Shown piece by piece: positions 9,488 through 30,022 of a stretch of DNA of 30,022 nt. The position numbers and the translations under genes are program-made. The notes under the pieces were generated by a model. That model was not told the DNA's origin. It saw nothing but the letters and a program-made list of their open reading frames with translations, and ran no database searches. The first letter of the stretch is position 1. Every line of letters begins with the position of its first letter. Source of the stretch: a virus. The stretch spans positions 1 through 30,022 of IMG/VR virus record IMGVR_UViG_3300029952_000099. One strand, given 5' to 3'.

Positions 9488-9715
9488 TTTGTGTGGTCGC
9501 ATTCTTCTTGGTAGGTTAGCGCAAGATGAAATTGGGTAGGCTGCCGAGAGTGGCCTAAAAAACGCCTCCGCAGGCAGACTGGTGATTGAGCTAGATAGCC
9601 TCCTGCACATTTGTGTGGAATACGCAATGTTTTATGGGTGGTTTGTGGATAAGTCCATTGCAATTATCTCGGCTTCAGCCTATATTTTGTATAGCAAATT
9701 GAAAAGAGCTTGAGC

Positions 9716-10033
9716 ATGCTAAAAAAGCCACAAACACCTAAGTCAAGGTGGTCGGTCCAGCAGTTAGAAGCATATATTAGGAAGCAATCATCCGATACTC
9801 ATAAGATCGTTTTTCTACCGCATGCGAAAGCGCAAATGAAAAAGCGGAAGATAACCATGGATTTGGCGCTTGCAACATTGCGAAAAGGAAAGATTAATTT
9901 GCAACCGGAGCCTGACTCAAACACGGGCGATCTGAAATGTCGAATGGAATATTTTTGCGCGGGTGAAGATATAAAAATTGTAGTAGCTATCAGCGATGAC
10001 AACCCTGATTTGGTTGTTGTTACGGCGATTTGA
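9716..10033 (+). CDS. DUF4258-family putative toxin
   Basis: The 105-residue protein has a RelE/MqsR-like sequence: FLPHAKAQMKKRKITMDLAL, then CRMEYFCAGEDIKIVVAISD and a C-terminal LVVVTAI strand. The histidine-containing HAKAQMKKR segment is typical of DUF4258 proteins, predicted mRNA-interferase-like toxins. It is followed 25 bp later by an HTH protein, as in MqsR/MqsA-type loci. It begins at the ATG at 9716, with AAGAG upstream; a TTG at 9710 is an alternative. Confidence 0.7.
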   Translation: MLKKPQTPKSRWSVQQLEAYIRKQSSDTHKIVFLPHAKAQMKKRKITMDLALATLRKGKINLQPEPDSNTGDLKCRMEYFCAGEDIKIVVAISDDNPDLVVVTAI

Positions 10034-10057
10034 CTGCTGCAGATGAAGGAGTAATAA

Positions 10058-10540
10058 ATGCATCACTACACCGACGGCGGCCTACAAAACGTATGGCTAA
10101 AAAATGGGTACGTGGAACACGCCACTAAGTATGGCAAGGGTTATTCTTACCATGATCTGGATGGACTAACCCAGGCTATATGCCAGGCTTTAATTAAAAA
10201 GAAAAGTAAATTAACAGGCGCGGAATTTCGCTATATCCGGAGCAATATGCATATGTCCCAAAAATCTTTGGGCAAGCTACTGGGCTATACGGAACAAGCT
10301 GTTGCCAAATGGGAGAAGTACGGGAAAATTCCCAAGGCAGCTGATGCCCTGATAAGATTAATTTATCAAGCAAAGCATAATGGGAATGAGAAAATAAGCT
10401 CGATGATTGACTCCCTGAACTTCATAGAGAATGTAGCGAATACAAAAATTGTCGTATCTGAAGTTAGGCAAAAATGGAGCGCAAAGGTTGAAAAGGCGTC
10501 CACGCCCGAATCTTACGAAGACTGTGCTGAATTTGCATAA
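10058..10540 (+). CDS. MqsA-like HTH antitoxin
   Basis: The 160-residue protein carries an HTH in residues about 60-105 (FRYIRSNMHMSQKSLGKLLG, then YTEQAVAKWEKYGKIP), the arrangement of MqsA-type antitoxin DNA-binding domains. The usual N-terminal zinc finger of MqsA is missing; instead there is a YHDLDGLTQAICQALIKK segment. Its place after the DUF4258 toxin gene makes it the likely antitoxin and autoregulator. Confidence 0.7.
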   Translation: MHHYTDGGLQNVWLKNGYVEHATKYGKGYSYHDLDGLTQAICQALIKKKSKLTGAEFRYIRSNMHMSQKSLGKLLGYTEQAVAKWEKYGKIPKAADALIRLIYQAKHNGNEKISSMIDSLNFIENVANTKIVVSEVRQKWSAKVEKASTPESYEDCAEFA

Positions 10541-10785: not shown

Positions 10786-11154
10786 CTAGGCTGCGTGACG
10801 CTGATCGAGTTCGAGTTTGAGTTCGACCTCGACTTTTTGCCGGCCATTTTCAAGGGACTCTTTTTTACTATCGTTTGCCATTTTTGCAATGATGATCTTT
10901 ATCTCTGAGCCTGCAAAGCGCTTCAATGCCTCGCGCATCAGGGGTTGGTAGCCCATACCGTGAATTTTTGCGATTTGCTTAAATTGCTCAATCAATTCCT
11001 TATCCAAGCGTATTGAGATGGCCTGCATCCCTTGTGCTTCGTCAATCTGACGCTGTAACTCCCTAGGGGCCGGTTGCGCATGATCCATATCCTGACCCAA
11101 AGCTCCATCTTCCCAGTTCTCGATTGTGCTATCAATCTTTGCTGTGGCGTTCAT
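10786..11154 (-). CDS. BrnA/CopG-like antitoxin
   Basis: The 122-residue protein contains MQAISIRLDKELIEQFKQIA and then GMGYQPLMREALKRF, the strand plus two helices of BrnA/CopG-type antitoxins. The N terminus is disordered and acidic. It follows the toxin gene by 26 bp on the same strand. GGAG lies 8 bases before the ATG at 11154, preferred over the ATG at 11166. In such modules the antitoxin binds toxin and represses the shared promoter. Confidence 0.7.
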   Translation of the reverse strand: MNATAKIDSTIENWEDGALGQDMDHAQPAPRELQRQIDEAQGMQAISIRLDKELIEQFKQIAKIHGMGYQPLMREALKRFAGSEIKIIIAKMANDSKKESLENGRQKVEVELKLELDQRHAA

Positions 11155-11180
11155 TTCTTTCTCCATTTGTGCAACTTCAA

Positions 11181-11468
11181 CTACTTCCCTTTTCGTTCAT
11201 AAATTTCTATTTCGACATCATTCGGTTCGTATGCTGTTTTTATTTGATGCTGTCCATCTTGGTATATAAAAACAATTTTTAATAAGCGCCCTTTATTTGT
11301 CTCAGCGACAAACCATAGGGTGGATGGGTCGGTGCGCCTATTTTCCCGATCGTCCACAAGAAATATCCCGCACTGGTTATCAAAACACTCATTGATTTCT
11401 TTTGGAGTGACCTTGTGCTTTTCGGATAATTTTTCCAGTACTCCTGGCGAGATGTGCAGTGACCTCAT
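11181..11468 (-). CDS. BrnT-like toxin
   Basis: The 95-residue product reads like the BrnT-like proteins often labelled 'ADP-ribosyl-(dinitrogen reductase) hydrolase': ISPGVLEKLSEKHKVTPKEI, ECF, FLVDDRENRRTDPSTLWFVA and LKIVFIYQDG. BrnT proteins are RelE-fold ribonucleases. The gene comes first, followed by the antitoxin, the BrnT-BrnA order. AAGGAG lies directly upstream of the ATG. Identity is from family recall, not a search. Confidence 0.7.
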   Translation of the reverse strand: MRSLHISPGVLEKLSEKHKVTPKEINECFDNQCGIFLVDDRENRRTDPSTLWFVAETNKGRLLKIVFIYQDGQHQIKTAYEPNDVEIEIYERKGK

Positions 11469-13778: not shown

Positions 13779-14666
13779 ATGAAAATCGAAATCACACAAG
13801 AACGCAGCTTCACCCTTCGCGCTGGTGCCAAGGCTATTCATGGCCTTATCCACGTCAGCGACTGGGAAGGCTTCACCAAGTACCAGGATGCCAAGGGCGG
13901 CGCTGTGTTCACTCATGGGGGCAAGTTGGTGCATGCATCCAACGACTTGGCTCACGATCTTGGCTTCGGCGTGGTCGAAGACGGATTTGTGCTGGTGCCG
14001 CAAGTCACCCTCCCCGGCGGTACTGTTGTCCCCTCTTTCTACGTTGCTCAGTATGCGGCCAGCAAGGGCGATGACGGCAAGGTGACCATTGATGCAAAAC
14101 GTAAGCCATGGGTCAACATCAATTTCGCTGACTCGAAGTCCGCTTGCGCAGCATCTGGTTATTCGATGATCACTGAAACTCAGTGGCTGGCCATCGCCTA
14201 TGACGCATCTCAGCAAGCATCGAACTGGACTGGCGGCAAGGTCGGCGAAGGTTCCATGTTACAGGGCGTGCGCAATGGCGGCAACGCTCTGGCCGGCGAC
14301 CAAGAGCCGGCGCACACAGAAGAGCGTCGTTGGCTTGTCTTGTCGAACGGCTCCCGCCTCTGTGACTTCAACGGCAACGTGTTCCAGTGGGTATTTGATG
14401 ACGTGCAAGGCAACGATGCTGGCCTGATCGCAAAGAAAATCACGTTGGAATCACCGTCGATGTCTACTGCACCCTACGCGTCAGAGAAAAAAGGCATGGG
14501 CTGGCGCCCTGACGGTGCGCGCGATTGGTCCAGCCGTGCGCTCTTCCGGGGCGGCTGCTGGGGCTCGGAGGACTATGCCGGCGCGTTCAGTCTCGACTAC
14601 GACTGGCCGGACCACGGGCTCGGCAGCATCGGCTTCCGCTGCACCAAGTCTAGCCCGGGTCTCTAG
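13779..14666 (+). CDS. DGR target protein 1 (FGE-sulfatase/C-type-lectin fold)
   Basis: The 295-residue protein has a unique N-terminal part (1-75) and a C-terminal FGE-sulfatase-like, C-type-lectin-fold domain, recognisable from IPSF-type strand VVPSFYVAQY, the GYSMITETQWLAIAYDAS helix, NWTGGKVGEGSMLQG, CDFNGNVFQWV and RGGCWGSED...AGAF...IGFRC. The last 40 residues are the variable repeat (14525-14641). This fold is the usual scaffold for DGR diversity because it tolerates changes on its ligand-binding surface. GAGGG precedes the ATG. The ligand is unknown. Confidence 0.9.
   Translation: MKIEITQERSFTLRAGAKAIHGLIHVSDWEGFTKYQDAKGGAVFTHGGKLVHASNDLAHDLGFGVVEDGFVLVPQVTLPGGTVVPSFYVAQYAASKGDDGKVTIDAKRKPWVNINFADSKSACAASGYSMITETQWLAIAYDASQQASNWTGGKVGEGSMLQGVRNGGNALAGDQEPAHTEERRWLVLSNGSRLCDFNGNVFQWVFDDVQGNDAGLIAKKITLESPSMSTAPYASEKKGMGWRPDGARDWSSRALFRGGCWGSEDYAGAFSLDYDWPDHGLGSIGFRCTKSSPGL
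14525..14641 (+). repeat. DGR variable repeat 1 (VR1)
   Basis: Aligned without gaps to the template repeat 20251-20367. In the 114-bp core (14528-14641) it differs at 17 positions, every one an A in the template; three more template adenines at 20251-20253 read TTG here. Non-A positions all match. The shared 3' end ATCGGCTTCCGCTG would be the initiation-of-mutagenic-homology end. Confidence 0.95.
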
Positions 14667-14677
14667 TCCCTGGTTCC

Positions 14678-14700
14678 GGGTCGCTGCGTAGCAGTGTCCC
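14678..14700 (+). promoter_or_regulatory. DGR hairpin downstream of VR1
   Basis: GGGTCGCTGC-GTA-GCAGTGTCCC folds into a ten-position stem with one mismatch and one G-T pair. It starts 37 nt after the VR1 end, the same distance as the hairpin after VR2, and shares the CTGCGTAGC top. Hairpin/cruciform elements after VR are known to aid retargeting in other DGRs. Confidence 0.7.
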
Positions 14701-14776
14701 GCTCAATGAAGTGAAATTTAAGAGCGCGCCGAAAAGGCGCATGGGCGGAGCTTTGTCAAAAATTTGGAGAGAATAC

Positions 14777-14908
14777 ATGAACTGTCGTTATCGATTCGTC
14801 TTTGCTGACGGCCGAGTACAAGTGGGCCAGAAGCGCGGCAATCCCAGCGTCATGGAGCGCGCTGCTCGTATGGCTGGCGCACTCGGCGTAACTGTGGTGG
14901 TGCTGTGA
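14777..14908 (+). CDS. Small hypothetical phage protein
   Basis: A 43-residue product with a KRGNP-containing basic middle and a hydrophobic end (GALGVTVVVL). GGAGA lies 7 bases before the ATG at 14777, which is better than the in-frame ATG at 14711. Its stop overlaps the next start (TGATG). Function unknown. Confidence 0.6.
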   Translation: MNCRYRFVFADGRVQVGQKRGNPSVMERAARMAGALGVTVVVL

Positions 14909-15000
14909 TGCGCGCCATCAAAGTCGGCTTGATCATGAGTGCGGTGTATCTCCTGATCATCGTCAAGCTGTGCGCCGAAAAGATGATTGGCGGTGCGTGA
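14908..15000 (+). CDS. 30-residue single-pass membrane peptide
   Basis: A very short frame bounded by TGATG overlaps on both sides, which is good evidence for coupled translation. It encodes a hydrophobic segment (KVGLIMSAVYLLIIVKL) with charged ends. Function unknown. Confidence 0.5.
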   Translation: MRAIKVGLIMSAVYLLIIVKLCAEKMIGGA

Positions 15001-15233
15001 TGAATGCGCGCTCCCGTCGAATTGTTCGCCGCTTTAGCCGCGCACTGCTTGCCTACATTGCCCTGTTCGCCCTGGTGTTCTTGTACGGCTACGTGCAGCA
15101 GCGTGACGAGAACGCCAACAACCAAGCCGAAGAAAGCATGCTCCGCAAAATCGCCGCTAACCAATGGCGCGAGGTGGACAGCAAATTAACGTACATGACC
15201 GGAATGCCGGCAACTAATAACGCAGGAGATTGA
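15000..15233 (+). CDS. Small single-pass membrane protein
   Basis: The 77-residue product has a basic start (MNARSRRIVRRF), one membrane helix (ALLAYIALFALVFLYGYV) and a polar tail, so the N terminus is probably cytoplasmic. The ATG overlaps the preceding stop (TGATG), which favours 15000 over the upstream start at 14970. Function unknown. Confidence 0.65.
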   Translation: MNARSRRIVRRFSRALLAYIALFALVFLYGYVQQRDENANNQAEESMLRKIAANQWREVDSKLTYMTGMPATNNAGD

Positions 15234-15235
15234 AA

Positions 15236-16387
15236 ATGGAAGCCCTTGAAAAGCCAAAAACAGAACTGTCCTTGCCGCAGCGCGCCGCCGTAGCGCTAGG
15301 CAGCACCGAGTTGGAAGCGAATCTGATTGCGCTTGCTAAGAAGCACGCCGATATCGTGGCAGTGAAAGACAAGACCGACCGCGCCCAAGTTCACGGCGCT
15401 GCAATGACGCTCAAAAACAACCGCACCGCTATAAAGAATACAGGTAAGGCGGCGCGGGAAGATGCGACGGCATTTCAAAAGGCAGTTATCACCGAGGAAA
15501 ATCGATTGGTCGCAATCATCGAACCCGAAGAGATTCGCTTGCTTGCTTTGCGCGATGAATTTGATGCGGCGGAAGAAGCTGCAAAGCAGGCTAAGATTAC
15601 CTCCGAGCGTAAGCGCATTGACGGCATCAAGGCCGCTATCGATGCCATTCGCAATATCCCGCTTGCGATGGTCGGCAAGTCATCGGCTGAAATTTCGCAG
15701 TGCATCTTTGGGTTAGCAGCTAGGCCGGATTATTCGGACATGGAAGAGTTCGAAGCGGAAGCGATCTCGGTCCGCCTGCAAGTTATCGATCAACTAGCCA
15801 AAGCAGAAACCGCGACCCGTGCAATTGAGGGTGAGGCCGAATCGCGGCGGAATGAGGCGGCCCGCATTGCTGCTGAGCAGGCAGAAACAGCGCGGCAGCA
15901 GAAGGAAAAGCAGGCCGAGCTTGATCGGGCCACCGCCGCACACTCTGCACGCATGGCAGAAGAAGAGCGCATAGCCACCCTCGCCCGTCAGAAACTAGAT
16001 GCCAAGGCAGCTGAAGCGCGCCGCATAGCAGATGCTGAGCTGGCCTCACAACGCGCCGAAATGGCAAAGCAGCAGGCAATCATCGACGCCCAGCTACGCG
16101 AACAGGAAGCCGCTACCGCCAAAGAGGAGGCCCGACGCAATTCTGAATCAAAAGCCGCTGCCGATGCCGAGGCCAAGCGCTTACAAGACATCGCTGATGA
16201 GCAAGAGCGCCAAGATAAGGCTGCAAGGCAGGAGCGCACTCGCATTGAGAGCGCGCAGCACGTCGAACGCGTACATGCCGATATTGTCGCCAACATGGTT
16301 GCCAACGGGTTTCATACGAGTGACGCGGATACGCTCATCGATCTGATCTGTGCCGGCAAGGTGCCACACGTAACCATTAACTATTGA
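15236..16387 (+). CDS. Coiled-coil phage protein next to ERF
   Basis: The 383-residue product has a helical N-terminal half (residues 1-180) and a long alanine/glutamate/lysine/arginine coiled coil (about 190-345). GGAG lies 9 bases before the ATG. Proteins of this kind often stand just upstream of phage single-strand annealing genes and may organise DNA ends or partner the annealase; that is inference from position. No enzymatic motif is evident. Confidence 0.6.
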   Translation: MEALEKPKTELSLPQRAAVALGSTELEANLIALAKKHADIVAVKDKTDRAQVHGAAMTLKNNRTAIKNTGKAAREDATAFQKAVITEENRLVAIIEPEEIRLLALRDEFDAAEEAAKQAKITSERKRIDGIKAAIDAIRNIPLAMVGKSSAEISQCIFGLAARPDYSDMEEFEAEAISVRLQVIDQLAKAETATRAIEGEAESRRNEAARIAAEQAETARQQKEKQAELDRATAAHSARMAEEERIATLARQKLDAKAAEARRIADAELASQRAEMAKQQAIIDAQLREQEAATAKEEARRNSESKAAADAEAKRLQDIADEQERQDKAARQERTRIESAQHVERVHADIVANMVANGFHTSDADTLIDLICAGKVPHVTINY

Positions 16388-16394
16388 GGAAATC

Positions 16395-17180
16395 ATGACT
16401 GATACAGTCCTTGAAATGGAAGCGCCAAAAAAGATGCAAGTGGCAGTGCATGCCCCACAACAAACTGCCCTGGCGCTTTCAACAAGCAGCGATTCGCAAA
16501 CCATGATGCGCCTGATCGAAGCCGCAATGGATAAACCCGACTTCGATATCGCAAAGCTTCAGCAACTTTTAGAGGTTAAAGAGCGCTGGGACGCTAACGA
16601 ATCGCGCAAAGCATTCACTTCCGCCATGACCGCATTTAAGACTGAGCCGCTGGAGATTTTCAAGCGCAAGGAAGTCAGCTTTGTTACTCAAGGCGGCGGA
16701 ACAACGTCGTATAAACATGCCGAATTATCGGACGTCACTGCCGCTATTACCCCTGCCATGGCGAAGCATCAGCTCAGCTTTCGCTGGAACGTGCGCCAAG
16801 ACTCGGGAATCATTTCTGTCGATTGCATCGTAACGCACGTACTCGGTCACTCTGAAATGGTTTCGATGGTCGGTAGCCCTGATGCATCTGGCAAGAAAAA
16901 CGCTATTCAGCAAGTCGCATCGACAGTGACTTACTTACAGCGCTACACGCTCCTGGCGGCGACTGGGATGTCTACCAAGGGCGAGGATGACGATGGTCGC
17001 AGCGCGCAACCAGAGAAAGAAGAAGCCCCAAAACCGGCAATCTCGGGCGCGCGATTCGATGGTGCATTGAAGTCGATTCGCAAAGGCGACTACACCATCA
17101 AAGAACTGGTCGGCTATTACGCGCTGACTCCAGACCAACAAACCGTTGTCGATGATCTGAAAAAGGAACTTTCAAAATGA
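16395..17180 (+). CDS. erf: ERF-family single-strand annealing protein
   Basis: The 261-residue protein shows ERF hallmarks: FTSAMTAFKTEPLEIFKRKE, TTSYKHAELSDVTAAITPAM, LSFRWNVRQDSGIISVDCIV and QVASTVTYLQRYTLLAATGM. ERF proteins anneal complementary single strands during phage recombination and circularisation, like lambda Beta. The acidic linker and small C-terminal domain are typical. The end overlaps the exonuclease gene by 4 bp, and an SSB follows, giving a full annealing module. Confidence 0.9.
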   Translation: MTDTVLEMEAPKKMQVAVHAPQQTALALSTSSDSQTMMRLIEAAMDKPDFDIAKLQQLLEVKERWDANESRKAFTSAMTAFKTEPLEIFKRKEVSFVTQGGGTTSYKHAELSDVTAAITPAMAKHQLSFRWNVRQDSGIISVDCIVTHVLGHSEMVSMVGSPDASGKKNAIQQVASTVTYLQRYTLLAATGMSTKGEDDDGRSAQPEKEEAPKPAISGARFDGALKSIRKGDYTIKELVGYYALTPDQQTVVDDLKKELSK

Positions 17181-17839
17181 TCCGTATCCGTGCCTCATCT
17201 CTGCATGAAATCATGGGCAATCCAAAATCCGGCGACGGCCTGTCCATTGCTGCAAAAACGTACCTGTCCGGCATGGCAAAGGAATTTGCCTACGGTTACA
17301 CAGAGGTAATCAGCAGCAAGTATATGGACAAGGGAATTCAGTGTGAAGACCCCGCAATTGATCTGTACAACATGGTTTTTTTCACGAACTACACCAAGAA
17401 CAAAATACGCAAGGATAACCAGTGGATTACCGGTGAGTGCGACATTCTCGTTCCTGCCCGCAAGGTCATCGATATCAAGAACGCTTGGTCGCTAGCGAAG
17501 TTTCCGGCGACAAACGAAGAAGTCGCAGCTATCGCAAAAAAGTCAGGGTATGACTGGCAAGGCCACTCCTACATGTGGCTGGAGGATGTTGATTTGTTCG
17601 AGCTGGCTTACTGCCTCGTATCGACGCCAGAAGACCTTATTAAGTATGAGCAGCAAGAGCTGCACTTTGTTGACCACATCGACCCAACGCTACGCGTGAC
17701 ACGGACGTTCATTGAACGCGACAAAGAAGTAGAAGCAAAAATCAAACACAAGGTAGAGCTGGCGCGCGAGTTTCTTTTGAACTACGCCGCTCAAATCAGC
17801 CTTGACCACAAACACGACGAATTTAAGGAGGCTGCATAA
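17177..17839 (+). CDS. YqaJ-like/lambda-exonuclease-type nuclease
   Basis: The 220-residue protein has the PD-(D/E)XK nuclease core: Glu57 in QCEDPA, Asp89 in GECDI and Asp99-x-Lys101 in VIDIKNAW, with QGHSYMWL further on. Enzymes of this type degrade the 5' strand at double-strand ends and feed single strands to the annealase. It overlaps erf by 4 bp and is followed by ssb. The 220-residue length fits the lambda Exo/YqaJ class. Not tested by search. Confidence 0.75.
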   Translation: MIRIRASSLHEIMGNPKSGDGLSIAAKTYLSGMAKEFAYGYTEVISSKYMDKGIQCEDPAIDLYNMVFFTNYTKNKIRKDNQWITGECDILVPARKVIDIKNAWSLAKFPATNEEVAAIAKKSGYDWQGHSYMWLEDVDLFELAYCLVSTPEDLIKYEQQELHFVDHIDPTLRVTRTFIERDKEVEAKIKHKVELAREFLLNYAAQISLDHKHDEFKEAA

Positions 17840-17840
17840 C

Positions 17841-18278
17841 ATGCACATGATCGGACTCGCCCGCCTGGGCAAAGACAGCGAATTGCGTTCCACCAATGAC
17901 GGCACGCAAGTTCTCAGTATGGCACTGGCATTCAATTTCGGTCGAAAAGATCAGCAGGGGCAGCGTCCCAGTCAATGGGTCGATGCCGCACTGTTCGGAG
18001 ACCGCGCTGAGAAGCTTGCACCTTATCTGCTCAAGGGCGTTCAAATTGAAGTGCACTTGTCGGACCCACATATTGAAACCTTCAAACGCCGCGATGGCAC
18101 TGAAGGGTTCAAATTAGTTGCCATGGTAGGTCCGCTTGAGTTCGCCGCAAACAGCGCACCGCAAGGGCAGCCAAATCAGCAACAGCAGTCTCGGCAACCG
18201 GCAGCAGGAGGCCATCGTGCGCCAGCCAGCCGCCCTGCCCCGAATTTCTCGGATATGGACGACGACATCCCGTTTTGA
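17841..18278 (+). CDS. ssb: Single-stranded DNA-binding protein
   Basis: The 145-residue protein has an OB-fold N-terminal part with typical SSB features (ARLGKDSELRSTNDGTQVLS, WVDAALFGDRAEKLAPYLLKG), a Gln/Pro-rich linker and the acidic tip DMDDDIPF, the standard docking site for SSB partners. AAGGAGG precedes the ATG. With ERF and the nuclease it completes the phage recombination set. Confidence 0.9.
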   Translation: MHMIGLARLGKDSELRSTNDGTQVLSMALAFNFGRKDQQGQRPSQWVDAALFGDRAEKLAPYLLKGVQIEVHLSDPHIETFKRRDGTEGFKLVAMVGPLEFAANSAPQGQPNQQQQSRQPAAGGHRAPASRPAPNFSDMDDDIPF

Positions 18279-18372
18279 GACCCAGTAATTCCCCGCAGCC
18301 GCCGGACTGCAAGCCTGCGATAGCGGGCTCCGGCACAAACATTCAACCGCAGCACAATTAAGGAGAAGATCC

Positions 18373-19302
18373 ATGAATGCAATAACTGAAGCGCAGGTCG
18401 ATAAAAGAAAAATCGGCATCTACAACAAGTTTGACGTGCGCCGCACAGATGGAAGCGATGAACCAGGCGGCAAGCACCATGGTGACAAACTGTTTGTCTT
18501 GAATATCACTACCGACAAATTTGCCGCCACCGCCGCACTTGCCTATGCCAAGGCATGCGCGAAGGAATACCCAGTCCTGGCTGCCGATCTTCGTTCCATG
18601 GTTCGCGGCGCACCATTCATGCAAGATACGTTCGTGACAGTTCCTGAAACCATGCTGCCAAATGGTCTCGTCGTTCCAGAGTTTCAGGTAGCAGCCTATC
18701 TTACCGGCAAGTCTGAAGATGACGAGCTTGTCATCAATGATCAGGCTACGCCATGGACTGACATCAGTTATTACGACGCGAAGTCCACTGCTACCGATGC
18801 CGGTTACCAGCTGATCACTGAAACGCAGTATCTGGCATTGGCGCACAACATCGCCAATCAGGACATCAACTGGACTGGCGGCAAGGTCGGCGAAGGCTCG
18901 TTGCTCCAGGGGCTCCGAGATGGCGAACACGACGAAGCACAGCCAGTCAGTGTCGGTCCAGATGAAGGCAACGAGCGCCGTTGGATGCAACTGTCAAATG
19001 GCGCGCGCATCTGGGATGTCGCCGGGAACGCATATTCATGGGTGCATGACGACGTCCAGGGCAATGATGAAGGCTTGATCGCAAAACCTTTTGCAGAAGA
19101 CTCACCTTCGATCACGACCGCCCCCGCGCCATCGATGAAGCAAGGCGTTGGCTGGTATCCATCCGCTGGCTCTGATTGGTCCGGCGATGCGCTCGTCCGG
19201 GGCGGCTGCTGGAGCTCGGGGGACCGTGCCGGCGCGTTCCGTCTCGACCTCGTCTGGCCGGACAACGGGAGCGACGGCATCGGCTTCCGCTGCACCAAGT
19301 AA
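18373..19302 (+). CDS. DGR target protein 2 (phage domain fused to FGE/C-type-lectin fold)
   Basis: The 309-residue protein has two parts. Residues 10-80 (YNKFDVRRTDGSDEPGGKHH, KLFVLNITTD, YPVLAADLRS) resemble a small stand-alone protein found in the early region of many Betaproteobacterial phages. Residues 85-309 are the same FGE-like fold as target 1 (ITETQYLALAHNIA, NWTGGKVGEGSLLQG, RGGCWSSGDRAGAF). The end is the variable repeat 19176-19292, closing with GFRCTK. AAGGAGAAG lies before the ATG. The two targets share the scaffold but not the N terminus. Confidence 0.9.
   Translation: MNAITEAQVDKRKIGIYNKFDVRRTDGSDEPGGKHHGDKLFVLNITTDKFAATAALAYAKACAKEYPVLAADLRSMVRGAPFMQDTFVTVPETMLPNGLVVPEFQVAAYLTGKSEDDELVINDQATPWTDISYYDAKSTATDAGYQLITETQYLALAHNIANQDINWTGGKVGEGSLLQGLRDGEHDEAQPVSVGPDEGNERRWMQLSNGARIWDVAGNAYSWVHDDVQGNDEGLIAKPFAEDSPSITTAPAPSMKQGVGWYPSAGSDWSGDALVRGGCWSSGDRAGAFRLDLVWPDNGSDGIGFRCTK
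19176..19292 (+). repeat. DGR variable repeat 2 (VR2)
   Basis: Gap-free alignment to the template gives 19 differences in the 114-bp core (19179-19292), all at template adenines, with changes to G, C and T. Three further template adenines at 20251-20253 read TTG, as in VR1. No non-adenine position differs. This is the signature of reverse-transcriptase-linked adenine mutagenesis. Confidence 0.95.
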
Positions 19303-19328
19303 TAGCTCGGGCATCTGGTTTCCGGTCC

Positions 19329-19353
19329 CTGGTCACTGCGTAGCGGTGACCAG
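19329..19353 (+). promoter_or_regulatory. DGR hairpin downstream of VR2
   Basis: CTGGTCACTGC-GTA-GCGGTGACCAG makes an 11-pair stem (one G-T pair) with a GTA loop. It begins 37 nt after the VR2 end, exactly as after VR1, and shares the CTGCGTAGC apex. It is not found after the template repeat. Confidence 0.75.
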
Positions 19354-19380
19354 TTAAAACAACAAAGAAAAATTGCAGAC

Positions 19381-20229
19381 ATGAAAATAGATCAAGTACC
19401 AACCGCCGAAGAAGTCAGTAAGTTCACAATCAGCTCGTTCAAAGGGATTGATGTTGGACTAGGCAAGGACGACAAGATTGCTGATATCGCGGCAAAGCTG
19501 GAAGAACAATACCCGATGCACCTTATCTTGATCCAGGCCGGTAAATTCCTGCATGGATATGACCGCACAGCACATGCGCTCAGTACGCTAAAAAAGTACA
19601 AGCTGAAACTGGTTGGCACTTCAGACAATCCGCATATACGCGTTGGCTTCCCGGTCAACAAGTTCAAAAGCCGCCTCTGGTCGATGGTGGAAGAGTTCAA
19701 GACACCCTACGTGGTTTCTCTCGGCACGCATGAGGCTGGCCGTGATGTGTACGTTTCAGAGTTTGGCACAGCCGAGGCTTCCATCATGTCCGCAGTCTCA
19801 CGCGGAATCGTCATGCAGGTCATCAATGATCTGCGCCAGCACGGCGAACTGAATCAGGCCAGCGCCAAGAAGCTGCTGACCAACCCTGAAACGTCCGGCT
19901 TCAAGCTGAAGATGCACGCACAGGATCTGGACCAGCATTTGATCATGGACCTAATCAAGATGCCTCGCGACATCCGCGTGACATGGGGCGAGAACGTGCG
20001 CGTCTGCATGGCAAGAATCATGCACGGCATTTTCGTCTATGGACTTGAAATCAACAAAACTGGCCTTCTCGTTCGTGTATCTGCCGATATCGATCTGCTG
20101 AAGCACTATCTCAGCCAGGCACCGCGTTTAAGCAATCTCAAGTTCGCGTTCGAACATCGAGTTTCCTTAGCCGTTGAGCTTGGCCGGTTACTGGGTGGCG
20201 TTATGCGCGCCGCAAAGGAGCCGACATGA
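19381..20229 (+). CDS. DGR accessory protein: MutS-like domain plus Avd-like helical bundle
   Basis: The 282-residue protein has an N-terminal part (about 35-125) resembling MutS domain I: YPMHLILIQAGKFLHGYDRT matches the 'P..LLFF+.GdFYElF.+DA' pattern, followed by IRVGFPVNKFKSRLW. The C-terminal part (about 195-280) is four-helix, basic (RDIRVTWGENVRVCMARIMH, ADIDLLKHYLSQAP, FAFEHRVSLAVELGRLL), like the Avd protein that binds DGR RT. MutS-like accessory genes are known from DGR surveys. It lies between VR2 and the template and overlaps the RT frame by 4 bp. The division into two domains is my inference. Confidence 0.75.
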   Translation: MKIDQVPTAEEVSKFTISSFKGIDVGLGKDDKIADIAAKLEEQYPMHLILIQAGKFLHGYDRTAHALSTLKKYKLKLVGTSDNPHIRVGFPVNKFKSRLWSMVEEFKTPYVVSLGTHEAGRDVYVSEFGTAEASIMSAVSRGIVMQVINDLRQHGELNQASAKKLLTNPETSGFKLKMHAQDLDQHLIMDLIKMPRDIRVTWGENVRVCMARIMHGIFVYGLEINKTGLLVRVSADIDLLKHYLSQAPRLSNLKFAFEHRVSLAVELGRLLGGVMRAAKEPT

Positions 20230-21506
20230 TCAACAAAGGGGATTCTCTGGAAAGTCCAGCAATGCGCTCATCCGAGGCGGCTACTGGAACTCGGAGGACA
20301 ATGCCGGCGCGTTCAATCTCAACAACGACTGGCCGGACAACGAGAACGACAACATCGGCTTCCGCTGACCCAAAAATTACACGCTTAGATCGTGGGCATG
20401 CCCTCGTAAAGCAATCTATTCTTGGTCGGGAATCTCCTGGGGATACCCCAAAAGCACGGCATCAGGCCACACCGGAAACCGTCGCAGGGCTCACGAGCGC
20501 TGCGGCGGGATGCGGTAAGCAATCCGAATTCACGCGCCTGACAAGCCTGAGCAATATGTTCCAGTGCTGGAGCAAGGCAAAAAAGAACAAGTCGCAAAAT
20601 CTGCGGGTGCAGCGCTTCGGCGATGACCCATTGCGTTACTTGGTCACCATTCAAGCCAAGCTGCGCGACTGGAGCTATAGCTTTGGCCCATACAAGACTT
20701 TCACTGTGCGCGAAAAGAAATTCCGGCACGTTGTCGACGCACCGATGAAAGATCGCGTGGTGCACTGGATGCTGTACCAGTACATGTTGCCGATCTGGCA
20801 GCCACGATTCATCCACGATACATTCGGCAACCTCCCTGGACGTGGCACACACGCCGCCGTACAGCGTTTGGCTGACTTCACTCGGGCGGCCGGCACAAGC
20901 TGGGTGCTGCAGTTGGATATCTCGAAGTATTTTTATTCGGTCAATCATGCGATTCTCAAGGCGCGTGTATTGCGATTCATCGGTGATACCAGTCTGCGCC
21001 GGTTGATCATCAGCCTGATTGATTCATTCCAAACAGACGCTCAGTTTGACGAGCTCTTCGCTCCTGACAGCATGTACCGCACCACGGCCGCCAAAGGCAT
21101 GCCGATTGGCAATCTGTCATCGCAGCTCTTCGCAAATATTTTCCTCAATGACTTTGACCACTGGGTGAAGGAAGTGCTGCAAATCCGCCATTACATTCGA
21201 TATGTAGATGACATGGCTATCTTGGGTGACTCCCGCGCCGATCTGCTCCGCATTGGCGAACAGATCGTACAAAAGCTTGCTGCCGATGGTTTGACGATTC
21301 ACCCTTTCAAGATTCGTCTGGCGCCGACCGCCGCTGGCGTGCCGTTCCTCGGATATGTCGTGCATCCAAACCACATTTCAGCCGGCAAGTATGTACGCAG
21401 CCGGTATCACTACCGCCTGCGACAGCACGAAACAGGCGGCTACGACCGCACCGAGGCGCTTGCCTCTTATCAAGCCATGTTTGCCCATACGGGCGCCACC
21501 TACTAA
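20226..21506 (+). CDS. DGR reverse transcriptase
   Basis: A DGR-type reverse transcriptase: the catalytic motif is YVDD (21201-21212), and the signature IGNLSSQ (21105-21125) has the SQ form typical of DGR enzymes. Other RT blocks: FRHVVDAPMKDRVVHWMLYQ, TFGNLPGRGTHAAVQRL, LQLDISKYFYSVNH, FLGYVV. The conserved part begins near FTRLTSLSNMFQCW, about residue 101. The ORF opens at 20226 by ATGA coupling, and the template repeat lies in its first 48 codons. Other in-frame starts are 20262, 20301 (in the template) and 20556; the last would cut off conserved residues. Start unresolved. Confidence 0.92.
   Translation: MINKGDSLESPAMRSSEAATGTRRTMPARSISTTTGRTTRTTTSASADPKITRLDRGHALVKQSILGRESPGDTPKARHQATPETVAGLTSAAAGCGKQSEFTRLTSLSNMFQCWSKAKKNKSQNLRVQRFGDDPLRYLVTIQAKLRDWSYSFGPYKTFTVREKKFRHVVDAPMKDRVVHWMLYQYMLPIWQPRFIHDTFGNLPGRGTHAAVQRLADFTRAAGTSWVLQLDISKYFYSVNHAILKARVLRFIGDTSLRRLIISLIDSFQTDAQFDELFAPDSMYRTTAAKGMPIGNLSSQLFANIFLNDFDHWVKEVLQIRHYIRYVDDMAILGDSRADLLRIGEQIVQKLAADGLTIHPFKIRLAPTAAGVPFLGYVVHPNHISAGKYVRSRYHYRLRQHETGGYDRTEALASYQAMFAHTGATY
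20251..20367 (+). repeat. DGR template repeat (TR)
   Basis: This 117-bp repeat is the template for VR1 and VR2. In the target frame it would encode an Asn-rich version ending in GFR-stop, with AAC/AAT codons where targets vary. Of 29 adenines in the 114-bp core, 24 are changed in at least one VR. It lies between the accessory gene and the conserved RT region. The next 190 bases (20368-20555) may serve as the spacer part of the template RNA. Confidence 0.95.
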
Positions 21507-21512
21507 GGATAG

Positions 21513-22658
21513 ATGATGTTAAAAAATGCCACGATTTACCGCTTGTCTGCACCATGGGCTATGACCGCTGAAGCACTGGAATCGCTGCTGGTGCCGCAAC
21601 GATTCGCCCCGCTGTCGAGCCTTGAAATGAAGTCTCAGGGCTGGGCGCCGGTTCGCGAGCATGGCACCCTAGTGCATGTAGTCAATCATCAGATTCTGCT
21701 GAGCTTACAAACTGAGTCCAAGATTCTGCCTGCCAAGGTCATCAATAAAGTGGTCAAGGAGCGCGCCATAGAACTGGAAGAGCAGCAAGGCTTTCCGCCT
21801 GGTCGCAAGCAGACCAAGGAACTGAAGGAGCAGATCACAGACGAACTATTGCCGCGTGCGTTGAGCAAAGTCGCATCGATGTTCACTTGGATTGACCCGG
21901 TGAACGGCTGGCTGGTATGCGATGCCAGCGCCACTGCCCGCGCAGAGGATGCGCTCAAGCTGATGCTCAAGGCAATCCCAAAGTTCCCGCTGGAAACGCT
22001 GCGCACCGTCCGCTCTCCCCTAGCTGCGATGACAGACTGGCTTGCCAGTGACGAAGCGCCAGCAGGCTTCACTATCGATCAGGATGCGGAGTTACAGGCC
22101 AGCGGCGACAGCAAGGCAACGGTTCGCTTCGTGCGCCACACGCTGGACCCGGACGACGTGCGCCGCCATATCGAGTCTGGCAAGCAATGCACGCGCCTGG
22201 CGATGACCTGGAGCGACCGCATTTCGTTCACGCTGACCGAGGGCGGAGTCATCAAGGGTATCAAGCTGCTGGATGTGCTCAAGGAGGATAGCGACGGATC
22301 GAGCAAAAACGAGGATGAGCGCTTTGATGGCGACTTCATGCTGATGACTGGCGAGCTCAATAAGTTGCTGGGCGATTTGGTAGCGGCGCTGGGCGGCTTT
22401 ATTGTTGAGGGCGCTGAGCCAGTCCACGGCACTCCCTCAGTAGCGGCGCAGTCACCAGAGAGCGAGCTGCCTGATGACGAACTGTATGACCAGGCCGTCG
22501 CAGTGGTGCTCAAGAATCGGCGCGTCTCAATCTCACTTGTGCAGCGGCATTTGCGGATCGGCTACAACCGTGCCGCCCGTTTGCTGGAACAAATGGAGGT
22601 CAACGGCGCGGTTTCGGCGATGCAATCGAATGGCAATCGCACCATCTTGGCCGTATGA
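21513..22658 (+). CDS. rdgC: RdgC protein fused to an FtsK-gamma domain
   Basis: Residues 1-310 match RdgC ([77 protein letters not shown]), a ring-forming DNA-binding protein that limits RecA and aids some phages. The last 65 residues ([39 protein letters not shown]) are a winged helix of the FtsK-gamma type, which reads KOPS motifs in FtsK. At 381 residues it is about 80 longer than E. coli RdgC. AAGGA precedes ATGATG (21513 or 21516). The end overlaps the methyltransferase gene by 4 bp. Confidence 0.85.
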
Positions 22659-27108: not shown

Positions 27109-28329
27109 ATGACGTTTGAAATCATCGACAGCACCGGCCTGCCAATCAAAGCTTGGACTCGCGGCGTACAGGTAGAGGAAGCGGCAAAGCAGCAATTGCG
27201 CAATCTAGCCTCCCTACCATTCATTCACAAGCACGTTGCGGCCATGCCGGACGTTCATTGGGGCATGGGCGCGACGGTCGGCAGTGTGATCGCCACCAAG
27301 GGTGCAATCATCCCGGCTGCGGTCGGTGTCGATATCGGCTGCGGCATGGCTGCGCAGCGCACAACTTTGGTAGCGTCAGACCTGCCGGACAACCTAGGGC
27401 CATTGCGTAGCGCTATCGAGGCAGCGATTCCGCATGGCCGAACAAACAATGGTATGCCTGGCGACCGAGGCGCATGGGGTGATGTACCAGAATCGCACTA
27501 CGCGGCCATCGGCAGCCACCTTGAAGCGCTGAAGGTCATTACGACCAAACACCCGAAACTGGAACGCGCCGCTCGCCGCGCAGAACACCATGCCGGCACC
27601 TTGGGCACTGGTAATCACTTCGTTGAAATCTGCCTCGATGAAGAGCAGCGCGTCTGGATCATGCTTCACTCAGGCTCACGTGGCATGGGCAACGCTATCG
27701 GAAGCTACTTCATAGAAGCGGCCAAGAAGGATATGGAGCGCTGGTTTATCAACCTGCCGGACAAGGATCTAGCCTATTTCCCACAAGGATCGAACATGTT
27801 TGATGACTATTTTGAGGCCGTCGGCTGGGCGCAGGGGTTCGCCCGGACTAATCGGGAACTGATGATGGTAGCTGCCCTGCGCGCCCTTCATGCCGCCGTG
27901 CCGAAGCAGTTCCAATGTGACTGCGAGGCGGTGAACTGCCACCACAATTACGTGACCTGGGAGAAACATTTCGGCGATAACGTCATGGTCACCCGCAAGG
28001 GTGCTGTTGACGCGCACGAGGGAAAGCTCGGAATCATCCCCGGCAGCATGGGGGCCAAGTCATTTATCGTGCGCGGCAAGGGCGAGCGCGAGGCATTTTG
28101 CTCATGCTCCCACGGTGCCGGACGATCAATGTCCCGAGCAGAGGCAAAACGGCGATTCACCATCGATGACCACATTGCTGCTACAGCCGGCGTTGAGTGT
28201 CGCAAGGACGAGGATGTGATTGATGAGACACCGGCCGCCTACAAAGACATTGATGCCGTAATGGCCGCGCAATCTGACCTGGTGGATGTTGTGCACACGC
28301 TGAAACAGGTTTTGTGCGTGAAGGGATAG
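27109..28329 (+). CDS. rtcB: RtcB 3'-phosphate RNA ligase
   Basis: The 406-residue protein is a full-length RtcB: Cys78 in VGVDIGCGM, DVHWGMG, HHAGTLGTGNHFVEI, HSGSRGMGN and the guanylylated histidine in CSHGAGRSMSR (His334), matching E. coli Cys78 and His337 in order and spacing. RtcB joins 2',3'-cyclic-phosphate RNA ends to 5'-OH ends using GTP and Mn2+. In a phage the likely use is repair of tRNAs cut by host anticodon nucleases. It is followed by a tiny basic ORF and the excisionase gene. Confidence 0.95.
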   Translation: MTFEIIDSTGLPIKAWTRGVQVEEAAKQQLRNLASLPFIHKHVAAMPDVHWGMGATVGSVIATKGAIIPAAVGVDIGCGMAAQRTTLVASDLPDNLGPLRSAIEAAIPHGRTNNGMPGDRGAWGDVPESHYAAIGSHLEALKVITTKHPKLERAARRAEHHAGTLGTGNHFVEICLDEEQRVWIMLHSGSRGMGNAIGSYFIEAAKKDMERWFINLPDKDLAYFPQGSNMFDDYFEAVGWAQGFARTNRELMMVAALRALHAAVPKQFQCDCEAVNCHHNYVTWEKHFGDNVMVTRKGAVDAHEGKLGIIPGSMGAKSFIVRGKGEREAFCSCSHGAGRSMSRAEAKRRFTIDDHIAATAGVECRKDEDVIDETPAAYKDIDAVMAAQSDLVDVVHTLKQVLCVKG

Positions 28330-28711: not shown

Positions 28712-29574
28712 CGCGGCGGTGGGAGTCTGAACTGTATGCAATCACAAGCGGAGAAAGAAAGGCAGTCGTCACCATTGGCGACTGCGTCCACAAACATGTG
28801 GCGGACAAAAAAGGAAGCTGGAAGGATGGGACGAAGCGCATTTTGATTTTGCAGAAATGGCGCGAGGAATACGCGGAGCAAAATGCGGAAGACCTGCACG
28901 ACTGGTCCATCAAGTTCGTTGGCTATATGCGCGCCGGGCTTGACCGGCTTGGCCGCAAGAAACAGCCACTAACTGACGGATCAATCCGCAATATCCTTGC
29001 CTACATTCGCGCAGCTATCAAATACGCATGCAAAGTTGGCATGATTGACATCGATCAGACTTCGCGCATGACAATTCCGCCAGTTCGGAATCAGCGCCAT
29101 CATTACCCGTTGCGTAAAGAAATGATTCTGATTGCCAGGGCTTGCCGAGATAGGCAAGTACGCGCAGGAATCCGGGTCGCATTTTATTCCGGCATGCGAA
29201 AGTCAGAAATATTGCGAGCAAGAGTGACGCGGAAGGGATTTGTGCTCGACGACACAAAGAACGGGAGGCCTCGTATCATTCCAATTCATCCACGCATTGC
29301 TGTGGTCGCCCGGAAAATAAAATTCACTATTGGCGTCAATGCCTTTACCAATGAGTGGGAGATGGCAAGGAAGATTGCGGGATTCCCAATGACGCACTTC
29401 CATGACTTGCGTCATGGTGCGGCGTCGGAGATGATTAATGCCGGTATTGACCTCTTTACGGTCGGCGGCGTTCTTGGACATGTGTCCATTGTTTCCACCC
29501 AGCGGTACAGCCATTTGGTTACCGAGCGACTGGCTGATGCAGTCGGCAAGATCGGTATAAAGCAGAAGAAATAG
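28576..29574 (+). CDS. int: Tyrosine site-specific integrase
   Basis: The 332-residue protein has an N-terminal arm-binding part (MPIETITKAGKKRYRWTFN), a core-binding helical domain (about 65-155) and a catalytic domain with Arg208 (YSGMRKSEI), His276 and Arg279 (HDLRHG), His302 (GHVS) and nucleophile Tyr311 (QRYSHL). It recombines phage and host att sites. It is the last phage gene; a tRNA-Leu 3' part lies 127 bp further on, the expected att position. Confidence 0.92.
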   Translation: MPIETITKAGKKRYRWTFNRIISGQRIRQTKLLPVGISAAEADGLARRWESELYAITSGERKAVVTIGDCVHKHVADKKGSWKDGTKRILILQKWREEYAEQNAEDLHDWSIKFVGYMRAGLDRLGRKKQPLTDGSIRNILAYIRAAIKYACKVGMIDIDQTSRMTIPPVRNQRHHYPLRKEMILIARACRDRQVRAGIRVAFYSGMRKSEILRARVTRKGFVLDDTKNGRPRIIPIHPRIAVVARKIKFTIGVNAFTNEWEMARKIAGFPMTHFHDLRHGAASEMINAGIDLFTVGGVLGHVSIVSTQRYSHLVTERLADAVGKIGIKQKK

Positions 29575-29576
29575 GG

Positions 29577-29596
29577 GTGTGCATTTTTCTGCCATT
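29577..29596 (+). repeat. 20-bp direct repeat, copy 1
   Basis: GTGTGCATTTTTCTGCCATT occurs here, two bases after int ends, and again at 29819-29838. The copies flank the tRNA-Leu remnant. Possibly integrase arm sites or the trace of an earlier recombination. Confidence 0.6.
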
Positions 29597-29784: not shown

Positions 29785-30022
29785 TTACAAAATAAAAAAG
29801 CCAAAAATTAAAATGGCAGTGTGCATTTTTCTGCCATTGCCATATTTTCCCGCAGAATTATCTACGGAAGCCAGTGCGAGCCGCCGAACACCCGCACCCC
29901 GGCCCACATGAGCCAGCGCCTCGGCATAAAGCCCGCAAGAGTGATCCCTCAGCGACTCTAGGCAGTCATCTGCTGGCGCCGCATCCAATGCAATCCACGG
30001 CTCGGTGTGCTGCCAATCCAGA
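29785..30022 (-). CDS. Partial ORF at the window edge, probably host
   Basis: A minus-strand frame is open from the window edge to a stop at 29785. Its start (DWQHTEPWIALD, then GLYAEALAHV) faintly recalls small HAD-like proteins of Burkholderiales, but an aspartate expected after ALD is missing and the C-terminal part looks random. The frame is cut by the window edge. Confidence 0.3.
   Translation of the reverse strand, partial: LDWQHTEPWIALDAAPADDCLESLRDHSCGLYAEALAHVGRGAGVRRLALASVDNSAGKYGNGRKMHTAILIFGFFIL
29819..29838 (+). repeat. 20-bp direct repeat, copy 2, within a hairpin
   Basis: An exact copy of 29577-29596. Here it also forms the right half of a hairpin AATGGCAG (29812-29819) / CTGCCATT (29831-29838). 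It lies just past the tRNA-Leu remnant, probably in host DNA. Confidence 0.6.

Follow-up and report, generated by a model that had tools for sequence, protein, structure and literature searches.

The stretch of DNA analysed here (the window) is the entire IMG/VR viral record IMGVR_UViG_3300029952_000099, a contig of 30,022 nucleotides given as one strand, and it carries a diversity-generating retroelement (DGR) with two target genes. Target gene 1 (13779–14666) and target gene 2 (18373–19302) contain the variable repeats VR1 (14528–14641) and VR2 (19179–19292), respectively; downstream lie an accessory gene (19381–20229) and the open reading frame (ORF) of a reverse transcriptase (RT; 20226–21506, 426 residues), and all of these features are on the + strand. 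The template repeat (TR; 20254–20367, +) is located inside the RT ORF, in a frame that differs from that of the VRs.

A sequence-only reading of the window had described a complete DGR that has two targets and varies at adenines only. The TR and VRs, the RT motifs and an accessory protein with an Avd fold are indeed all present, and aligning the three repeats reproduced the counts of that reading exactly. Over 114 bases, VR1 differs from the TR at 17 positions (A>G 10, A>T 4 and A>C 3) and VR2 at 19 (A>G 14, A>C 3 and A>T 2). All 17 and all 19 mismatches fall on a template A, with a hypergeometric chance of 7e-13 for VR1 and 1e-14 for VR2. At least one VR is altered at 24 of the 29 template adenines, while changes at non-adenine template sites, which the reading held to count against it, are absent from both VRs (0 of 85). 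In the frame of the VRs, 28 of the 29 template adenines occupy codon position 1 or 2, and none of the 20 adenine-containing codons can turn into a stop; the theoretical protein repertoire is ∼4e16, and of 37 residues 13 are changed in VR1 and 14 in VR2. Both strands of the 30,022-base record were searched for additional VR or TR copies and none was found. Three features go beyond the earlier description: the TR inside the RT frame, an accessory protein fused from two domains and a hairpin 3′ of each VR.

The template repeat in the RT reading frame

The RT ORF matches RVT_1 (3.8e-24) and phrog_1423 (2e-96) and contains IGNLSSQ and YVDD, corresponding to the RT motifs [IVL]GxxxSQ and Y[MV]DD, and its tblastn matches include BPP-1-type DGR RTs at ∼32%. 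Its placement in the DGR group, which agrees with the earlier call of a DGR-type RT, is by motifs, profile and tblastn matches. RT searches gave a tight group at 66–100% identity; the next matches are at ∼32% among viral contigs and at ≤43%, mostly short or distant, among genomes. Removal of duplicates left 56 loci in which the accessory gene, TR and RT follow one another in the same order; the TR was assigned under a position constraint. The order target–accessory–TR–RT is common to all of them and 52 of the 56 have one to three detected VRs.

The RT ORF of the window starts at a ribosome-binding site (AAAGGAG) and an ATGA overlap with the accessory stop codon (20214–20229, +). The ATGA overlap is found in 54 of the 56 loci, with a 4-nt Shine–Dalgarno core in 42. 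In the 47 loci with a short spacer between the TR and the RT core, the RT frame has no stop codon over the TR and spacer in any locus; the remaining two forward frames contain 105 and 89 stops. A stop-free TR was rejected as proof of coding; the TR is nearly stop-free in every frame, so that only the spacer and the pattern of indels are informative. For the spacer alone, the RT frame has no stops, compared with 62 and 20 in the other frames over the 47 loci and 71 and 20 over all 56. Shuffled spacers are expected to hold 1.6 stops per locus, with a probability of 0.19 per locus of holding none; the loci form 37 clusters at 85% RT identity and are related, so that these counts are not independent trials. 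Spacer length varies from 161 to 185 but is always 2 mod 3, i.e. the indels keep the frame, and the leader length is 24, 27 or 30 in nearly all loci. Changes in the spacer by codon position are 299/301/382 (p = 0.001, a modest third-position excess), compared with 1469/1039/3844 in the RT, and the synonymous share in the spacer is highest in the RT frame (0.40 versus 0.29 and 0.26). An intergenic, untranslated TR is a usual although not defining trait of DGRs; in all 47 short-spacer loci the TR and spacer lie in the RT reading frame instead. These comparisons argue that the reading frame is kept and that the leader peptide itself is weakly constrained.

One alternative is an ordinary DGR in which the RT starts internally after the spacer, the open frame being an untranslated by-product of composition and RNA structure. 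Several observations lend it weight and count against translation of the template. The spacer has only a weak codon signal, and residues 1–98 of the RT ORF, which are encoded by the TR and spacer, are predicted to be disordered in the AlphaFold model (pLDDT ∼27), with the RT fold beginning at about residue 99 (20520); the peptide itself may thus not matter. The TR alone, as noted, is open in nearly any frame. The brt frame of BPP-1 is also open through the TR (the other frames have one stop each), and a BPP-1 plasmid with 74 bases removed from the TR and 30 added still homes (PMC3240598), a net change of 44 nt that by our own arithmetic shifts the frame; an open frame alone is therefore no proof of translation. 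Many loci also have some ATG, GTG or TTG near the RT core, and in the window there is an ATG 15 codons before it. Against an internal start stand the stop-free RT frame of the spacer, the preservation of the frame by every indel, the eight of 46 loci with no ATG, GTG or TTG between the TR and the RT core, and six relatives, described below, in which the leader is joined to unrelated proteins with no start codon at the junction. We consider an internal start unlikely, and the sequences point strongly to a translated template.

An in-frame template was rejected as a property of all DGRs: with RTs at ∼30% identity the frame is closed in several loci, and some loci at 33–39% have the TR after the RT. 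In five loci at ∼30% RT identity (L064, L069, L077, L079 and L084) almost no gap separates the TR from the RT and the RT frame is open across the TR, whereas other loci of that group have it closed.

The structured spacer and proteins fused to the leader

The segment 3′ of the TR (20366–20508, +), within the RT ORF, is predicted from covariation to form a structured RNA. The consensus structure has 32 pairs with 97% paired cells, and 18 of the pairs show two-sided compensatory changes; there are 93 doubly changed cells, compared with 24 ± 6 in shuffled alignments and 4–13 with slid partners. In BPP-1 a structured spacer recruits bRT–Avd and primes the cDNA (PMC12875486). By analogy, the covarying spacer fits such a bRT–Avd-recruiting element, here sited in coding sequence.

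The spacer is long in nine loci. In six of these (L014, L015, L047, L049, L098 and L100) the TR and spacer leader is fused in frame to another protein and the junction lacks a start codon; L042 has an ATG there, and in L044 and L060 the frame continues into the RT. Every locus examined thus has an open leader that is joined to a protein downstream. Matches among the fused cargo proteins are to a D12-class adenine methyltransferase (1.3e-22), a PAPS-reductase domain (1.2e-24), an N6/N4 methylase (2.1e-13) and an H-NS C-terminal domain (4.5e-09). Cargo genes are at L047:7144-7977, L049:7042-7977, L100:9258-9974, L015:9143-9901 (no Pfam match for this one) and L098:9735-9977. The cargo stop codon overlaps the RT ATG in L014, L015, L047, L049 and L098, 24 nt upstream of the usual RT start. 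L047 and L049 are 98% identical across 5.5 kb upstream yet differ in cargo, so that the spacer/RT junction behaves as an exchange point.

The accessory protein

The accessory gene (19381–20229, +) encodes 282 residues and, as the sequence-only reading had proposed, completes the cassette. Its AlphaFold model (mean pLDDT 75.6) has two domains. Residues 28–131 (19462–19773, +) match domain I of MutS and MSH3 in PDB fold searches (Z ∼12, r.m.s.d. 2.2–2.9 over 99 residues), and residues 172–281 (19894–20223, +) form a four-helix bundle that matches BPP-1 Avd (PDB entry 4dwl; Z = 15.0, r.m.s.d. 1.8 over 105 residues). Sequence profiles agree weakly yet consistently with these assignments: MutS_I (PF01624) is matched in 11 of 44 family members (best 3.9e-4), and NF033474 in 44 of 44 relatives (best 1.4e-9, below the curated cutoff). 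A PDB sequence-profile search with the accessory protein gave unconvincing matches only, and it was the fold search that gave the domains. On the evidence of the model, a MutS domain I-like domain and an Avd domain are fused in the accessory protein. At the position of the MutS Phe-x-Glu probe in our alignment the family has (F/W)-L-(H/Q): the residue is aromatic in 44 of 44 members, and Glu is replaced by His or Gln. The MutS-I domain may bind distorted cDNA/VR or hairpin DNA; alternatively, it might shield the heteroduplex from host mismatch repair.

MutS-like (MSL, PF01624) proteins are known DGR accessory proteins (PMC10053308). As far as the descriptions can be compared, the two cases share a MutS domain I tied to a DGR and differ in that MutS-I is here joined to Avd in one protein. 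No description of such a fusion was found in the literature searched; the 2018 survey that defined MSL, which was outside that search, may record some. In one relative (L018:5768-7821) the accessory gene and TR are tandemly duplicated with identical TR copies, which is either real or an assembly artefact.

Target genes and hairpins

Each target gene encodes a C-type-lectin-like domain and has its VR at the 3′ end. Target 1 (295 residues) matches FGE-sulfatase (PF03781, 9.1e-07) and phrog_2889 (1.4e-27), and its N-terminal extension is one of two types found across the family; target 2 (309 residues) matches FGE-sulfatase (2.5e-05) and phrog_9572 (1.5e-36). The VR is C-terminal in both proteins and ends 10–25 nt before the stop codon, a distance that is similar throughout the family. 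One relative has a 425-residue protein (L102:13224-14498) that shares its N-terminal domain with one of the target types (phrog_9572 positions 2–69) and in which no VR was detected.

A hairpin lies 35 nt 3′ of VR1 (14677–14701, +; CGGGTCGCTGC-GTA-GCAGTGTCCCG) and another 36 nt 3′ of VR2 (19329–19353, +; CTGGTCACTGC-GTA-GCGGTGACCAG). Across the family, a hairpin is found 27–44 nt downstream of 95 of 98 VRs, compared with seven of 56 TRs and 33 of 490 shuffles, and 39 distinct stems retain pairing. Of the 95 loops, 59 are GNA and 27 are GNNA, and 84 are closed by C–G. As DNA, C(GNA)G and C(GNNA)G loops are highly stable, which is consistent with a hairpin that acts in DNA form. The published rule for phage DGR hairpins is a GRNA tetraloop (PMC3240598); only two GATA loops here conform to it, and GRNA is a trait of phage DGRs and not a definition of the family. 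The presence of the hairpin on the recipient VRs and its absence at the donor TR can explain the direction of transfer.

Activity of the lineage

Between near-identical relatives, most of the differences fall in the VRs. In L047 and L049, three VRs differ at 16–18 of 27 adenine sites and at 2–3 of 87 non-adenine sites, compared with 0.9% outside; in L032 and L033 a VR differs at 15 of 24 adenine and 0 of 90 non-adenine sites (3.8% outside), and in L026 and L059 at 22 of 28 adenine sites (2.8% outside). This pattern argues that the lineage is active. Identical VRs in all related isolates, which the sequence-only reading held to count against it, are not what is found: one near-identical pair (L004 and L005) has identical VRs and most differ. 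Its suggestion of activity therefore holds for the close relatives, and for the copy in the window it stays at the level of a probable extension from them: a search with the target proteins gave no second sample of VR1 or VR2 (the closest relatives are at 77% and 60%), and the only other contig of this virus found (L017, 99.985% identical) begins 62 nt after the TR. Phage and plasmid collections held no close relative of the accessory protein, target 1 or the cassette.

The missing second sample and the identical VRs of L004 and L005 are what a decayed or inactive DGR, with VRs that merely record past activity, would have in its favour. We regard decay as quite improbable; the RT motifs, accessory ORF, TR and both hairpins are intact, the VRs match the TR at all 85 non-adenine sites, which neutral decay would erode, and VRs turn over in close relatives. 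Gene conversion with point mutation (for example by an adenine deaminase) and no RT-copied template is scarcely credible: A>G predominates (24 of 36 changes here and 904 of 1539 across the clade), but A>C and A>T transversions, which deamination does not produce, make up 41% of changes clade-wide, the changes are confined to the VRs with none in the TR, and the cassette has both a DGR-clade RT and an Avd domain. Summed over the family (97 VRs in 56 loci), 1539 of 2470 adenine sites differ, compared with 30 of 8588 non-adenine sites.

Genome context

The contig encodes DnaC, a replication initiator, a CI/LexA-like repressor, an Erf annealing protein, an exonuclease, an SSB-like protein, RdgC, a C5 methyltransferase, RtcB and a tyrosine integrase, and the DGR with both targets lies within the early/recombination region of this temperate-phage contig. 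The Erf, exonuclease and SSB-like genes (16395–18278, +; the SSB call is read from the translation) are between the two targets. Directly 3′ of the RT is an RdgC gene with a C-terminal FtsK gamma (DNA-binding winged-helix) domain (21513–22658, +; PF04381 and PF09397), and RdgC is close to the cassette in 14 other loci. The cassettes of relatives adjoin RdgC, SSB-like, RecT, RecE or Erf genes, as well as integrases. None of the family VRs is in a tail gene; two relatives have tail-fibre and baseplate genes beyond the integrase, none with a VR. The hosts of chromosomal relatives are Betaproteobacteria (Solimicrobium, Duganella, Pseudoduganella, Aromatoleum, Methylotenera and Paracandidimonas), and on the strength of these relatives the host of the phage is probably a betaproteobacterium too.

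Several other features of the contig were seen. An Rfam tRNA match (33.4 bits, 24–94, −), without an ARAGORN call, is at the contig end opposite the integrase and may be an attachment-site remnant. A 28-nt direct repeat (29569–29596 and 29811–29838, 89% identical) flanks the 3′ end of the integrase and could represent att or integrase arm sites. A 107-residue ORF followed by an MqsA-type antitoxin-like gene (9710–10540) is a possible toxin–antitoxin pair, and two small genes at 10786–11468 (−) resemble what we take, from reading them, to be a BrnT/BrnA toxin–antitoxin pair. The phage also bears an RtcB-family RNA ligase (27109–28329).

Discussion

The element is a real DGR and is not categorically new. 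We consider it very probable that it is a temperate-phage DGR in which the TR and spacer, held in the RT frame, are both message and template, with a MutS-I::Avd fusion as helper and VRs marked by hairpins. Copying of a template from spacer priming, adenine mutagenesis and retrohoming are established for DGRs. Here, the TR and structured spacer would constitute the template RNA; the RT with the MutS-I::Avd protein would copy the TR, misincorporating at random opposite adenines, and the cDNA would replace VR1 and VR2 at the 3′ ends of the two lectin-like targets, which are hairpin-marked unlike the TR. Ribosomes ending the accessory gene may restart at the overlapping ATGA, with initiation at 20226, and translation would run through the TR and spacer (the first ∼98 codons) into the RT. 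A single RNA would then be the RT message as well as the template, and translation and templating would have to alternate or compete. The targets may be early-expressed binding proteins.

We also lean, with less assurance, towards a stronger form of this proposal, in which the template is obligatorily translated as part of a coding leader that precedes the RT in the same protein; in some relatives this leader is joined instead to a DNA methyltransferase, a PAPS-reductase-like or an H-NS-type protein. This arrangement would couple the RT to its template in cis and provide a switch between translation and mutagenesis, and the MutS-I::Avd protein would add sensing of mismatches or structure.

The BPP-1 DGR (mtd–avd–TR–brt) is alike in the order of target, accessory gene, TR, spacer and RT, in adenine-only VRs at target 3′ ends, and in the hairpin 3′ of the VR, the Avd fold and the structured spacer (PMC12875486). 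It differs in having a single target, a tail fibre, where there are two non-tail targets here, and in that its TR directly abuts avd; homing tolerates a frame-shifting edit of that TR, so that the BPP-1 TR is not needed as RT coding sequence. What sets the present element apart is a TR and spacer that stay within the RT frame, the joining of MutS-I to Avd, and GNA triloops. A 2012 catalogue lists TRs that overlap the RT ORF, from annotation and without a coding test (PMC3521204), and infers that separate TR and RT RNAs are probable and the arrangement irrelevant. The overlap is the same; here it is conserved across the lineage, with indels of 3n and ATGA coupling. As far as the literature searched shows, the conserved coding frame, the cargo fusions, MutS-I::Avd and the GNA loops are new, although the 2018 MSL survey may hold some of these.

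The entry of mutated cDNA into the target is an unexplained step of DGR mutagenesis (PMC12875486), and fusion of Avd to a mismatch-recognition domain points to recognition of a heteroduplex or hairpin. A coding template is a natural setting for coupling an RT to its own RNA in cis, as in other retroelements. The lineage also suggests that DGR searches may misjudge such elements if they treat a TR located in coding sequence as suspect, and the two hypervariable proteins amid early recombination genes suggest that phages diversify non-tail proteins too.

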